From contig NZ_JMFG01000037.1 of the NCBI RefSeq assembly GCF_000687145.1, positions 1 to 36,362 of the forward strand: DNA of 36,362 bases, in the 5' to 3' direction. A program made the translations under genes and the position numbers. The notes beneath the pieces were generated by a model. It made no database searches. It was not told the DNA's origin and was given only the letters and a program-made list of their open reading frames with translations. This DNA comes from Thermoanaerobaculum aquaticum (GTDB taxonomy: Bacteria; Acidobacteriota; Thermoanaerobaculia; Thermoanaerobaculales; Thermoanaerobaculaceae). Position 1 is the stretch's first letter, and the number at the start of each line of letters is the position of its first letter. Below are positions 12,380 through 17,281 of this stretch, one piece after another.

Positions 12380-12389
12380 ATGCTAGCAT
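12380..12389. promoter_or_regulatory. Palindromic extended -10 element shared by divergent rsmF-like gene and malQ
   Basis: ATGCTAGCAT is a perfect 10-base palindrome and therefore presents TGC-TAGCAT, an extended -10 form, on both strands. Rightwards it would start transcription at or next to the malQ ATG (12395). Leftwards it would give a leader of roughly 30 bases before the TTG at 12342. An inverted repeat GCCAGC-CAC-GCTGGC (12360-12374) lies beside it and could be an operator. No good -35 box is visible on either side. This is inference from sequence only. Confidence 0.35.
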
Positions 12390-12394
12390 CGGGC

Positions 12395-13867
12395 ATGCGC
12401 TGGACCCGTTCTTTTGGGGTGCTTTTGCCGGTAACCTCGCTGCCAGCAAGCCCCCTCTTTGGCGATTTTGGCCCTCAGGCCCGCAACTTCGGGTCGTTCC
12501 TTAAAAGCGCGGGAGCCCGCTTTTGGCAGGTGCTCCCTCTAAACCCGCCAGGACCGGGGTTTTCGCCTTACTCTTCCCCTTCGAGCTTTGCCGGAAACCC
12601 CCTTTTGGTGAGCCCCGAGCTGCTCTGCCGGGAGGGCCTGCTGGCGCCGGAAGAGCTGGAAGGCATGCCCGCCGGCACCCGCTGGGCCCAGTACGAGCTT
12701 TCTCCGCTGCGCCAGCGGCTTTTGGACCTGGCTTTTGCCCGTTTTCAAAAAACAGGCTGGCGTGCCGCGGAATTTACCGCTTTTGGGGAGCGGGAGGCCT
12801 GGTGGCTGGAGGATTGGGCGCTCTTTTCGGTAGCAAAAAAGGCCTTTGGCGACCAGCCCTTCTGGCTCTGGCCCGAGGAGCTGGCCCACCGTAAGCCTGC
12901 CGCTCTCCAGCGCTTTGCCGCCCAAAACTCCCAGCGCATCGAGCAGGTGAAGTTTGAGCAGTTGCTCTTTGAGCTGCAGTGGCAGGCGCTGCGGAGGGAG
13001 CTTTCCCCCATCCAGATCATCGGCGATGTGCCGTTCTACGTGGCCCTGGACTCCGCCGACGTATGGGCCCACCCGGAGCTTTTCAAGCTGGGCCCTGACC
13101 TTCGTCCTCTGGCGGTGGCCGGCGTCCCCCCGGACTACTTTTCCCCCGACGGCCAGCTGTGGGGAAACCCCACCTACCGCTGGGAAGCCCATCAGGAAAG
13201 CGGCTTTGCCTGGTGGCGTGCCCGCCTGCAGCGGGCCCTGGCGCTTTACGACCTGGTGCGCCTGGATCACTTCCGGGGTTTTGCGGCGGCCTGGGAGGTG
13301 CCCGCCGGAGAACCCACAGCCCGCCACGGAGCGTGGGTGCCCAGCCCCGGGGAGGAGCTCTTCCGCTCCCTGGGACACGATCTTCCCCTCATTGCCGAAG
13401 ATTTGGGGCACATCACCGAGGACGTGGAAAAACTGCGGGACTGCCTGGGCATTCCGGGCATGGCGGTGCTGCAGTTTGCCTTTGACCCCGGGAGCCGCTC
13501 CAGGTTTCTCCCGCACTTTCACCGGCAAAACCTGGTGGTTTACACCGGCACCCACGACAACAACACCGCCCAGGGCTGGTGGGAAGAGGAAGCAACCGAG
13601 GAAGTGCGCGCCTTTTTCCGCGTTTATGCCGGCAACGATGAGCCGCCCCACCGGGCTTTGATCCGCCTGGCGATGGCTTCGGTGGCCAACCTCGCCATCC
13701 TCCCCATGCAGGACGTTTTGGGCTTGCCTTCATCCTGCCGGCTGAACCGGCCGGGGACCGCCTCCGGCAACTGGCGCTTCCGTCTGCTGGAAGAGGAGCT
13801 CCATCCGGACCCCGCTGCGTGGCTGCGGCACTTGGCCTGGGTTTACGATCGGCTCGCCGACGTTTAG
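12395..13867 (+). CDS. malQ: 4-alpha-glucanotransferase (amylomaltase), GH77
   Basis: This GH77 enzyme of 490 residues transfers maltodextrin segments between alpha-1,4-glucans in glycogen and maltose metabolism. The N-terminal GVLLPVTSLPASPLFGDFGP is typical of the short bacterial/Thermus type. All three catalytic acids are present: the nucleophile D291 (VRLDHFRGF), the acid/base E335 (LIAEDLG) and D388 (GTHDNNT). The C-terminus carries NRPGTASGNWRFR. I chose the ATG at 12395. The reading frame allows an ATG five codons upstream. Neither start has a clear Shine-Dalgarno, and leaderless translation is possible. No partner starch gene is adjacent. Confidence 0.95.
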   Translation: MRWTRSFGVLLPVTSLPASPLFGDFGPQARNFGSFLKSAGARFWQVLPLNPPGPGFSPYSSPSSFAGNPLLVSPELLCREGLLAPEELEGMPAGTRWAQYELSPLRQRLLDLAFARFQKTGWRAAEFTAFGEREAWWLEDWALFSVAKKAFGDQPFWLWPEELAHRKPAALQRFAAQNSQRIEQVKFEQLLFELQWQALRRELSPIQIIGDVPFYVALDSADVWAHPELFKLGPDLRPLAVAGVPPDYFSPDGQLWGNPTYRWEAHQESGFAWWRARLQRALALYDLVRLDHFRGFAAAWEVPAGEPTARHGAWVPSPGEELFRSLGHDLPLIAEDLGHITEDVEKLRDCLGIPGMAVLQFAFDPGSRSRFLPHFHRQNLVVYTGTHDNNTAQGWWEEEATEEVRAFFRVYAGNDEPPHRALIRLAMASVANLAILPMQDVLGLPSSCRLNRPGTASGNWRFRLLEEELHPDPAAWLRHLAWVYDRLADV

Positions 13868-13968: not shown

Positions 13969-15207
13969 ATGTCCGATGTTCGACCGTTTCGCGCGCTACG
14001 TCCCCGCCCGGAGCTGGCAGCCCAAGTGGCGGCGCCTCCGTACGACGTGGTTTCCTCCGAAGAAGCGCGAAAGCTCGCGGAAGGCAAGCCCTACTCGTTT
14101 TTGCACATCAACAAGCCGGAAATTGACCTCCCTCCTGACGTGGACCTCTACGACGACCGGGTGTACGCCCAGGGGGCCAGCAACCTGCGAAAGTTCATGG
14201 CCGAAGGGGTGTTTTTCCGGGAACAGGAGCCCCGCTTTTACGTGTACCAGCAGAAGATGGGCAACCACGTGCAGGCCGGCGTGGTGGCAGCGGTGAGCGT
14301 GGCCGAGTACGATGCCGGGCTCATCAAGCGCCATGAGCTCACCCGCAAGGATAAGGAAGACGACCGCACCCGGCACGTGGACGAACTGAACGCCAACGAC
14401 GAGCCGGTTTTCCTCACCTACCGCCAGCTTGCAGCCATTGATGCCCTGGTGGATCAGGTGCGGGCCGGTGCGCCGCTTTACGATTTCGTGGCGGAGGATG
14501 GCATTGGCCACACGGTGTGGGTGGTGCCGTCCGAGCTCGCCGCAAACCTGCAACAGGCTTTCCAGCAGGTGCCGGCCCTTTACGTGGCCGATGGCCATCA
14601 CCGTACCGCGGCGGCAGCCCGGGTGGGGCGGGAACGCAAGGCCAAGAACCCCCAGCACCGCGGGGACGAGCCCTACAACTACTTCATGGCCGTGCTTTTC
14701 CCCCACAACCAGCTGCAAATCTTGGACTACAACCGCGTGGTGAAAGACCTGGGCGGGCTTTCGCCTGAGGCTTTTCTCAGCAAAGTGGCAGAAAAATTCA
14801 GGGTGGAAAAGGCCAGCAGTGGGCGTCCCGAAAAGCGGCACCAGTTTGGCATGTACCTCCAAGGGCAGTGGTACCGTCTTGAAGCCGTTCCCGGAAGCTT
14901 CCGGGAGGACGACCCCATCGGCAGCCTGGACGTTTCCATCCTGCAGGAAAACCTCCTGGCGCCGGTTTTGGGGATCACCGACCCGCGTACCGACAAGCGC
15001 ATTGACTTCATCGGCGGCATCCGGGGCCTTTCCGCCCTGGAGCAACGGGTGGCGGAAGGCTGGGCGGTGGCTTTTGCCCTCTACCCCACATCCTTGGAGC
15101 AAGTGATGGCGGTGGCCGATGCCGGCCTCATCATGCCGCCCAAGTCCACATGGTTTGAACCCAAGCTGCGGTCCGGGCTTTTGGTCCGCACCTTGGACAC
15201 CTGGTAA
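13969..15207 (+). CDS. DUF1015 family protein in a serine biosynthesis operon; possible phosphoserine/serine phosphotransfer enzyme
   Basis: This is a 412-residue soluble protein of the DUF1015 family, with no signal peptide or membrane helix. It opens with VRPFRALRPRPELAAQVAAPPYDVV. It carries the family signature around residues 120-150 (KRHELTRKDKEDDRTRH, then ANDEP) and YVADGHHRTAAAA at 205-217. The DGHHR motif (208-212) resembles the active-site motif of free serine kinases (SerK, SbnI) of the ParB/Srx superfamily, as I recall it. The gene is the first of an operon with serA and serC, and no serB is present. I infer that it may catalyse or control the phosphoserine-to-serine step, but this is unproven. 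The ATG at 13969 is chosen because of the GGGAGG 7 bases upstream. Confidence 0.8.
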   Translation: MSDVRPFRALRPRPELAAQVAAPPYDVVSSEEARKLAEGKPYSFLHINKPEIDLPPDVDLYDDRVYAQGASNLRKFMAEGVFFREQEPRFYVYQQKMGNHVQAGVVAAVSVAEYDAGLIKRHELTRKDKEDDRTRHVDELNANDEPVFLTYRQLAAIDALVDQVRAGAPLYDFVAEDGIGHTVWVVPSELAANLQQAFQQVPALYVADGHHRTAAAARVGRERKAKNPQHRGDEPYNYFMAVLFPHNQLQILDYNRVVKDLGGLSPEAFLSKVAEKFRVEKASSGRPEKRHQFGMYLQGQWYRLEAVPGSFREDDPIGSLDVSILQENLLAPVLGITDPRTDKRIDFIGGIRGLSALEQRVAEGWAVAFALYPTSLEQVMAVADAGLIMPPKSTWFEPKLRSGLLVRTLDTW

Positions 15208-15240
15208 TTGCCGGTTCGCCGGCAGGAAAGGAGAAGCACC

Positions 15241-16125
15241 ATGCTCATCCTCATCTGTGATGCGTTTGATCCCTCCTTGCCCGACAAGCTCCGCCGTTTT
15301 GGCGAGGTCACCGAAGACCCCAACCGCTTGCCGGAAGCGGAGGTGGCCCTCGTGCGGTCCAAGACCAAGTGCACCGCCGAGTGGATGGCCCAGGCCCGCA
15401 AGCTCAAGCTCATCATCCGTGGGGGCGTGGGCATGGACAACATTGACCTGGAAGCCGCCAAGGCCCGCGGCATCAAGGCGGTGAACACCCCGAAGGCTTC
15501 CGCCGTGGCGGTGGCTGAGCTCACCATGGCCCTCATGCTGGCGTTGCCCAACCGCCTGGTGGAGGCCCATAACTCCATGAAGGAAGGTAAGTTCCTCAAA
15601 AAGGAGATCAAGCGCACCGAGCTTTTGGGCAAGACCCTGGGGCTTGTGGGCATCGGCAACATCGGTCACGAGGTGGCGGTGCGGGCGCGGGCCTTTGGCA
15701 TGCGGGTTTTGGCCTACGACCCTTACGTGAAGCAATCCCAATCGGCCATCTTGGTGGCAAGCCTCAAGGAGCTTTTGCCGCAGGCAGATTACGTGTCGCT
15801 CCATGTGCCGCTCACCGAAGAAACCAAGGGCCTCATCAACAAGCAGACGCTTTCTCTCATGAAAGACGGGGCCTACCTCATCAACACCGGACGGGGCAAG
15901 TGCGTGGTGGAGGAAGACGTGGCCGAAGCGCTGCGTAGCGGCAAGCTCGCCGGCTATGCCACCGACGTGTACTCTTCCGAGCCCCCGGAACCCGGAAACC
16001 CGCTTTTGTCCGCGCCAAACACCCTGCTCACACCGCACATTGGCGCCTCTTCCAAGGAAAACCTTTTGCGCATCGGTGACGAAGTGGTCAAGATTCTGGA
16101 GGAATACACCGGCAAGCGGGCGTAA
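15241..16125 (+). CDS. serA: D-3-phosphoglycerate dehydrogenase, short form
   Basis: This NAD-dependent D-2-hydroxyacid dehydrogenase oxidises 3-phosphoglycerate to 3-phosphohydroxypyruvate, the first step of serine synthesis. It has 294 residues, so it has only the substrate and nucleotide domains. The C-terminal ACT and ASB regulatory domains of long SerA proteins are missing, which suggests no serine feedback through them. The dinucleotide fold is GLVGIGNIG (GxGxxG at 137-142). The catalytic triad is R218 (NTGRGKC), E247 (SSEPPEP) and H266 (TPHIGASS). The ATG follows GGAGA, 33 bases after the DUF1015 gene. The serC neighbour supports this substrate over other 2-hydroxyacids. Confidence 0.9.
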
Positions 16126-16144
16126 GCTTGCCAAGGAGGCCGAT

Positions 16145-17233
16145 ATGAACCGTGCCCACAACTTCAACCCAGGTCCTGCCGCCCTCCCCCTGGAGGTGCT
16201 GCAAAAAGTCCAAAGCGAGCTTTTGGATTTTGCCGGTACCGGCATGTCCATTTTGGAGGTGTCCCACCGCTCCAAGGACTACGAAGCGGTGCACAACGCC
16301 GCCCAAAGCTTGATGCGCGAGCTCTTGGGAATCCCCGAAAACTACCACATCCTGTTCCTCGGCGGAGGCGCCTCGCTGCAGTTTTCCATGGTGCCCATGA
16401 ACCTCCTGGGCCCTGGGGTGTCCGCGGACTACGTGATCACCGGTGCCTGGTCGCAAAAGGCTTTTAAGGAAGCCAAGCTGGTGGGAAACCCGCGAGTTGC
16501 CGCTACCACCGAGGAAGACGGCAAGTTCACCCGCATCCCCAAGCAGGAAGAGCTGCAACTGGACCCCCAGGCTCGTTATGTGCACATCACCTCCAACAAC
16601 ACCATCTTCGGCACGCAGTGGCACACCTTCCCCAACACCGGCAACGTCCCCATCGTCGCCGATATGTCCTCCGATTTCCTCTGGCGCCCCTTCGACATCA
16701 AACCCTTCGGCCTCATTTACGGCGGGGCGCAAAAGAACCTGGGGCCGGCGGGTGTCACGGTGGTCATCATCCGCGATGACCTCCTTGCCCTCTGCCGCGA
16801 AGACATTCCCATCATCCTGCGTTTCAAAACCCACGCCAAGGACAATTCGCTGTACAACACCCCACCGGTTTTTGCCATTTACATCGTCAAGCTGGTTCTG
16901 GAATGGATCAAGGAAAAGGGCGGCCTGGCCTGGATGGAGCAAGAAAACCGGGCCAAAGCCGCGAGAATTTACGGGGTCATTGACTCCTACCCCGAGTTTT
17001 ACCGCGCTCCGGTGGCCAAGGACTCCCGTTCCTTTATGAACGCGGTGTTCCGCTTGCCCAGTGAGGAACTGGAAAACAAGTTCCTGGAAGGCGCCAAGGC
17101 CCACCGCTTCGTAGGGCTGAAAGGCCACCGCTCGGTGGGGGGAATCCGCGTTTCCATGTACAACTACGTGCCGAAAAGCTCGGTGGAAGAGCTGGCCCGC
17201 TACATGGAGGAGTTCGCCCGGGCCCATGCCTGA
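16145..17233 (+). CDS. serC: Phosphoserine aminotransferase
   Basis: This fold-type I PLP aminotransferase of 362 residues turns 3-phosphohydroxypyruvate and glutamate into O-phosphoserine and 2-oxoglutarate. [14 protein letters not shown] at the N-terminus, [16 protein letters not shown] and [12 protein letters not shown] are the SerC signatures, with K197 as the PLP lysine. The C-terminal phosphate-site region [14 protein letters not shown] is intact. The ATG follows AAGGAGG, 19 bases after serA. The operon ends with the terminator just downstream. Confidence 0.97.
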
Positions 17234-17255
17234 CCCTGCCAGAAGAAATCACCAG

Positions 17256-17281
17256 GGGCGGGATTGCTCCCGCCCTTTTTT
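17256..17281 (+). terminator. Rho-independent terminator after serC
   Basis: GGGCGGGA and TCCCGCCC form a perfect 8-bp stem with loop TTGC, followed by six T residues (17276-17281). It starts 23 bases after the serC stop and ends the serine operon. The minus-strand gene from the right stops at 17280, inside the T-run. On that strand no U-tract follows the hairpin, so it works in one direction only. Confidence 0.93.

Follow-up and report, generated by a model that had tools for sequence, protein, structure and literature searches.

This locus raises the question of which enzyme releases serine from phosphoserine where the genes for serine synthesis are grouped without a phosphoserine phosphatase. 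The window (the whole 36,362-nucleotide stretch of Thermoanaerobaculum aquaticum DNA that was analysed) contains three genes in a row on the forward strand: a gene for a 412-residue DUF1015 protein (Pfam PF06245; 13969–15207), serA for a short, 294-residue form of 3-phosphoglycerate dehydrogenase (15241–16125) and serC for phosphoserine aminotransferase (16145–17233). Only 33 bp separate DUF1015 from serA and 19 bp separate serA from serC. The serA product matches PF02826 (1e-61) and PF00389 (7e-24) and, in part, TIGR01327; the serC product matches TIGR01364 with 491.8 bits, above the cut-off. Directly 3′ of serC there is a GC-rich hairpin followed by a T-tract, a strong intrinsic terminator (17254–17277, + strand; 10-pair stem with 7 GC pairs and a T tail). 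The remaining terminator-like sites lay within genes or overlapped this one, and the total was not above that in shuffled sequences. Gene calls, profile matches and hairpin thus confirm the initial annotation, which had described a DUF1015-serA-serC operon with a single terminator and no phosphoserine phosphatase; no serB is found among its genes. A 4-alpha-glucanotransferase gene lies upstream on the same strand (12380–13867), so co-transcription with the operon is possible. Four tRNA genes are clustered at 101–488 on the reverse strand.

The assembly that contains the window comprises 2.66 Mb and is 95.8% complete; its closest named relative is an uncultured Thermoanaerobaculum, with 89% identity. 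A serB is absent from this whole genome: the best TIGR00338 match reached 26.8 bits against a cut-off of 144 and fell inside the frame of a P-type ATPase, so the serB-type phosphatase that would have spoken against a role for DUF1015 was not seen. A search for His-phosphatases returned SixA as the sole member, with no phosphoserine phosphatase of the iPSP/PspA type. The small HAD proteins of the genome are of the phosphoglycolate-phosphatase-like, DREG-2 and KdsC types, and one of them may, as far as sequence can tell, act promiscuously on phosphoserine. The TIGR00338, HAD and His-phosphatase searches together reject a serB located elsewhere in the genome, with the qualifications that promiscuous HADs exist and that 95.8% of the genome is represented. 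One HAD phosphatase domain (locus L011; G000 C20:131419–131937) has an unusual architecture, being part of a 585-residue open frame that runs well past the domain.

The DUF1015 protein is an unambiguous member of its family, matching all 325 positions of the PF06245 profile (E 5e-118; 394 bits against a cut-off of 25.8). The Pfam label of the family still reads ‘unknown function’, and NCBIfam has neither a model for the family nor a match for this protein, TIGR00338 included. DUF1015 was the only profile to pass its cut-off; no ParBc or HTH domain was detected by profile search even at E ≤ 10, nor was any regulatory or DNA-binding domain.

A fold model was obtained with AlphaFold2 from an alignment of 49 DUF1015 proteins and was confident (mean pLDDT 95.4, pTM 0.91). 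Foldseek comparison with 350,542 PDB chains gave nine matches at E ≤ 0.001, every one of them to SerK (5x0b–5x0k, 1vk1) or SbnI (5ujd, 5uje, 6nr6). A second structural aligner gave a Z score of 13.4 for SerK (222 of 239 residues) and 12.3 for SbnI (216 residues), with sulfiredoxin next at 4.8. The match, at model residues of about 90–411, spans both lobes and essentially the entire kinase. Therefore, DUF1015 has the full SerK architecture with an N-terminal extension of ∼88 residues. This relationship emerged from the fold search only, as PDB sequence searches with the protein and with the 49-row profile returned no relatives. The initial annotation had suspected a relationship with the ParB/Srx superfamily, and the model indeed groups with SerK and SbnI and with no other PDB entry at a significant level. 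DUF1015 has also been listed, with no function given, among ParB-fold proteins (PMC12704722, 2025).

The DUF1015 protein carries YVADGHHRTAAA at residues 205–216 (codons at 14581–14616, + strand), exactly where it had been placed previously. The D208-G-H-H-R212 within it is invariant in 49 DUF1015 homologues from many phyla, which shows that the motif is not due to chance. SerK carries VDGHHRW at 68–74 (DGHHR at 69–73), and the likeness to SerK that was first proposed from this motif now extends to the fold. Also invariant in the 49 proteins are H122, E123, K129, E130, R133, R256 and the whole of MPPKSTWFEPK at residues 389–399. The H122-E123 pair (codons from H122-E123 to K129-E130 at 14332–14358, + strand) sits between the first strand and helix of the model, a position that fits Glu30 of SerK; according to PDB titles, Glu30 mutants of SerK were used for trapping its complexes. 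Matching strands and helices in order, by topology, makes E123 a likely candidate for the equivalent of Glu30. The C-terminal MPPKSTWFEPK motif (codons at 15133–15165, + strand) may possibly form a phosphate or substrate loop. It had no match when probed against PDB sequences, so it does not count among the features shared with SerK. The N-terminal part of the protein (residues 1–88; 13969–14232) lies beyond the SerK-like region and contains an invariant PPYDV and E51.

The association with serine genes extends well beyond this genome. We scored 80 DUF1015 loci from many phyla for same-strand neighbours no more than 3.5 kb away: 35 have serA, a phosphoserine-type aminotransferase gene or both, and 27 of these have both. 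When all neighbours were clustered, the next commonest family occurred in 7 loci and none other exceeded this number. The genes were found in the orders DUF-serA-serC, serC-serA-DUF, serA-DUF-serC and DUF-serC-serA, so the link has been made or kept repeatedly. In many Firmicutes, the place of serC is held by a different class-V aminotransferase, which matches the published SerC3 idea (PMC9026213). The expectation that DUF1015 would adjoin serA and serC in genomes without serB is thus borne out across phyla.

SerB and DUF1015 are complementary in two groups, and across 50 genomes with DUF1015, drawn from many phyla, just one has a SerB above the cut-off. Co-occurrence was assessed with Fisher tests, in which related genomes count as independent and shared ancestry is uncorrected. 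None of 293 Clostridia genomes has SerB and 234 have DUF1015. DUF1015 was found in 158 of the 169 Clostridia with a TIGR01364 SerC and in 76 of the 124 others (p 1e-11, kin counted as independent); part of these 76 should be SerC3 users. Among 297 Acidobacteriota, 266 have DUF1015, and SerB-like genes were present in 16 of the 31 genomes without DUF1015 compared with 21 of the 266 with it (odds ratio 12, p 1e-8, again with kin counted as independent). Where genomes lacking DUF1015 were listed from the window’s own class, all seven had a SerB-like gene. Fifteen Acidobacteriota have neither gene; these may be auxotrophs, incomplete assemblies or carriers of yet another phosphatase.

The Chromatiales gave a different picture. 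Of 184 genomes, both genes are present in 86, DUF1015 alone in 88, SerB alone in 6 and neither in 4, and the presence of the two genes is unassociated (SerB in 6/10 genomes without DUF1015 and in 86/174 with it). DUF1015 was found in 88 of the 92 genomes without SerB. It is the fit to the DUF1015 profile that differs, with a median E of about 1e-112 in SerB-lacking genomes and 1e-105 in SerB genomes; of the copies worse than 1e-100, 24 were in SerB genomes and one was in a SerB-lacking genome. Weaker conservation of this kind would follow if the presence of SerB eased the selection acting on DUF1015. All of the most decayed copies belong to genomes with SerB. Strongly diverged copies (E 1e-7 to 1e-79) were noted in seven genomes, each of which has SerB, and these copies may be decaying or serving in another role. 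The two genes also occur together in Bacteroides ihuae and Methanosarcina acetivorans, so in these organisms and in Chromatiales DUF1015 is not a strict replacement. A model of strict SerB replacement in Chromatiales is weakened, as presence does not separate the genomes and only the degree of conservation differs.

T-box leaders turn genes on when a tRNA is uncharged, and the specifier codon identifies the amino acid concerned. We found T-box leaders before DUF1015 operons in seven Firmicutes, all seven with a UCC (Ser) specifier. The specifier was located by the established anatomy of T-boxes as the codon immediately preceding the (A/G)(C/U)C...GAG strand of stem I, and in several leaders GAA stands in front of it. 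In several Clostridia, serine T-boxes stand in tandem before an aminotransferase-serA-DUF1015 operon, namely in Lutispora (L039; 5464–5800) and in loci L126 (1716–2176), L129 (about 1800–2040; found by motif) and L135. A further Clostridia genome (L138) also has a T-box; the Pelosinus one (L097), at 91.4 bits, is just under the gathering score of 93; and in L134 the T-box lies ahead of serA, which is followed further along by the aminotransferase gene and DUF1015. Serine T-boxes imply induction on serine starvation, which suits an operon for making serine and argues against one for its degradation. The biosynthetic direction favoured in the initial annotation is therefore supported by the Firmicutes relatives. 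COG4198 genes in presumed Firmicutes reportedly have glycine riboswitches upstream (PMC2211319); no such riboswitch passed the Rfam threshold in the window, in 31 Firmicutes or related loci or in 20 further stretches.

Taken together, serA/serC adjacency, the absence of SerB and the T-boxes argue for the biosynthetic direction, and we consider it likely that DUF1015 converts phosphoserine to serine, acting in place of SerB at the third step of serine synthesis. SerA and SerC would make O-phosphoserine (Sep), which DUF1015 would turn into serine. The active site would be a two-lobed cleft as in SerK and SbnI, in which DGHHR would grip the phosphoryl group and an invariant glutamate, probably E123, would stand at the place of the catalytic Glu30 of SerK. 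The phosphoryl group would most likely go to water, making the protein a phosphatase that evolved from, or is sister to, serine kinases. On a wider scale, it is more likely than not that DUF1015 proteins form a large and so far unrecognised class of phosphoserine phosphatases with the ParB/SerK kinase fold, which use a kinase-type active site to hydrolyse or transfer the Sep phosphate and usually catalyse the last step of serine synthesis in Clostridia, Acidobacteriota and many further phyla.

The closest rival differs in the acceptor. The initial annotation described the SerK reaction as reversible, and a reversed reaction of this type would pass the Sep phosphate to AMP, ADP or Pi to yield serine and ADP, ATP or PPi. 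It would share the pathway position and the conserved DGHHR, and the nearest folds are indeed nucleotide-dependent serine kinases, with complexes containing Sep and AMP or ADP in the SerK PDB set. We nevertheless regard it as unlikely. The phosphate ester of serine has a transfer potential far below that of ADP, ATP or PPi, so that by general thermodynamics the transfer would be strongly uphill, suiting the use of serine and not its making. As the SerA step, the first of the pathway, is already uphill and needs pulling, such a transfer would stall the pathway; this favours hydrolysis, and DUF1015 probably acts in this way rather than by phosphotransfer, with water as the presumed acceptor. In addition, a DUF1015 protein was part of a selected panel of ParB-like proteins, yet the main text does not mention DUF1015 where it names the nucleotide binders (PMC12704722).

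DUF1015 might instead be a serine kinase, with the operon serving to degrade serine, by way of phosphoserine, to 3-phosphoglycerate, or to supply Sep to cysteine synthesis, and serine coming from elsewhere. SbnI makes phosphoserine, as its PDB name states, and in Desulfurococcales serK likewise lies by serA and an aminotransferase gene, a neighbourhood that has been read as serine assimilation (PMC5120207). However, the UCC T-boxes of seven Firmicutes indicate induction by serine starvation, SerB-like genes turn up where DUF1015 has been lost, and a kinase would leave all 293 Clostridia and 49 of the 50 DUF1015 genomes without SerB, many of them with serA/serC; this makes such a role quite improbable. 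Less probable still is a role in which DUF1015 senses serine or phosphoserine and regulates or assists SerA/SerC, the serine itself being made by an ordinary HAD phosphatase. SbnI is listed in the PDB as a bifunctional regulator and kinase, HADs of the phosphoglycolate-phosphatase and DREG-2 types are present in the genome, and SerB coexists with DUF1015 in Chromatiales, but DUF1015 has no detected DNA-binding or other regulatory domain, its catalytic-looking residues are invariant over phyla, and its better conservation where SerB is absent fits an enzyme.

Conversion of phosphoserine to serine by DUF1015 would bear on a published gap. In 450 gut genomes, mostly of diverse Firmicutes, SerA and SerC were found with none of four known phosphatases (PMC9026213), and Clostridium perfringens grows without serine and has only weak SerB candidates (PMC7311316). 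In a literature search confined to freely accessible articles other than preprints, we found no publication that assigns a phosphoserine role or any function to DUF1015, nor an earlier claim linking a phosphoserine phosphatase to ParB. If our reading is correct, DUF1015, present in 234/293 Clostridia and 266/297 Acidobacteriota, would close much of the 450-genome gap, auxotrophy predictions for gut bacteria would be corrected and a domain of unknown function would gain one. A known step of central metabolism would then gain a new class of enzyme, in which a kinase fold serves the reverse direction.

Among known systems, ParB CTPases and sulfiredoxin have the core ParB/Srx fold in common with DUF1015, with a far weaker match than SerK and SbnI, and ParB differs in that DUF1015 has no detected HTH or dimerisation domain and no DNA clamp context. 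SerB (HAD, TIGR00338) and iPSP/PspA (histidine-phosphatase) share the proposed reaction and pathway place; both are unrelated to DUF1015 in fold and family and both are absent from this genome. SbnI, the serine kinase of staphyloferrin B synthesis, has the same fold (216 residues aligned), whereas it makes phosphoserine within a siderophore pathway and its sequence is not detectably related. The known activity of SerK and SbnI is that of kinases, opposite in direction to the reaction proposed here. The nearest likeness is to SerK, the ADP-dependent free serine kinase (TK0378), which shares the two-lobed fold and DGHHR and in some archaea is also encoded beside serA and an aminotransferase gene (PMC5120207). 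In contrast to SerK, with which it has no profile-detectable sequence similarity, DUF1015 adds ∼88 residues at the N terminus and a long insertion ahead of DGHHR, has a vast bacterial distribution and, as proposed here, would work in the opposite direction.
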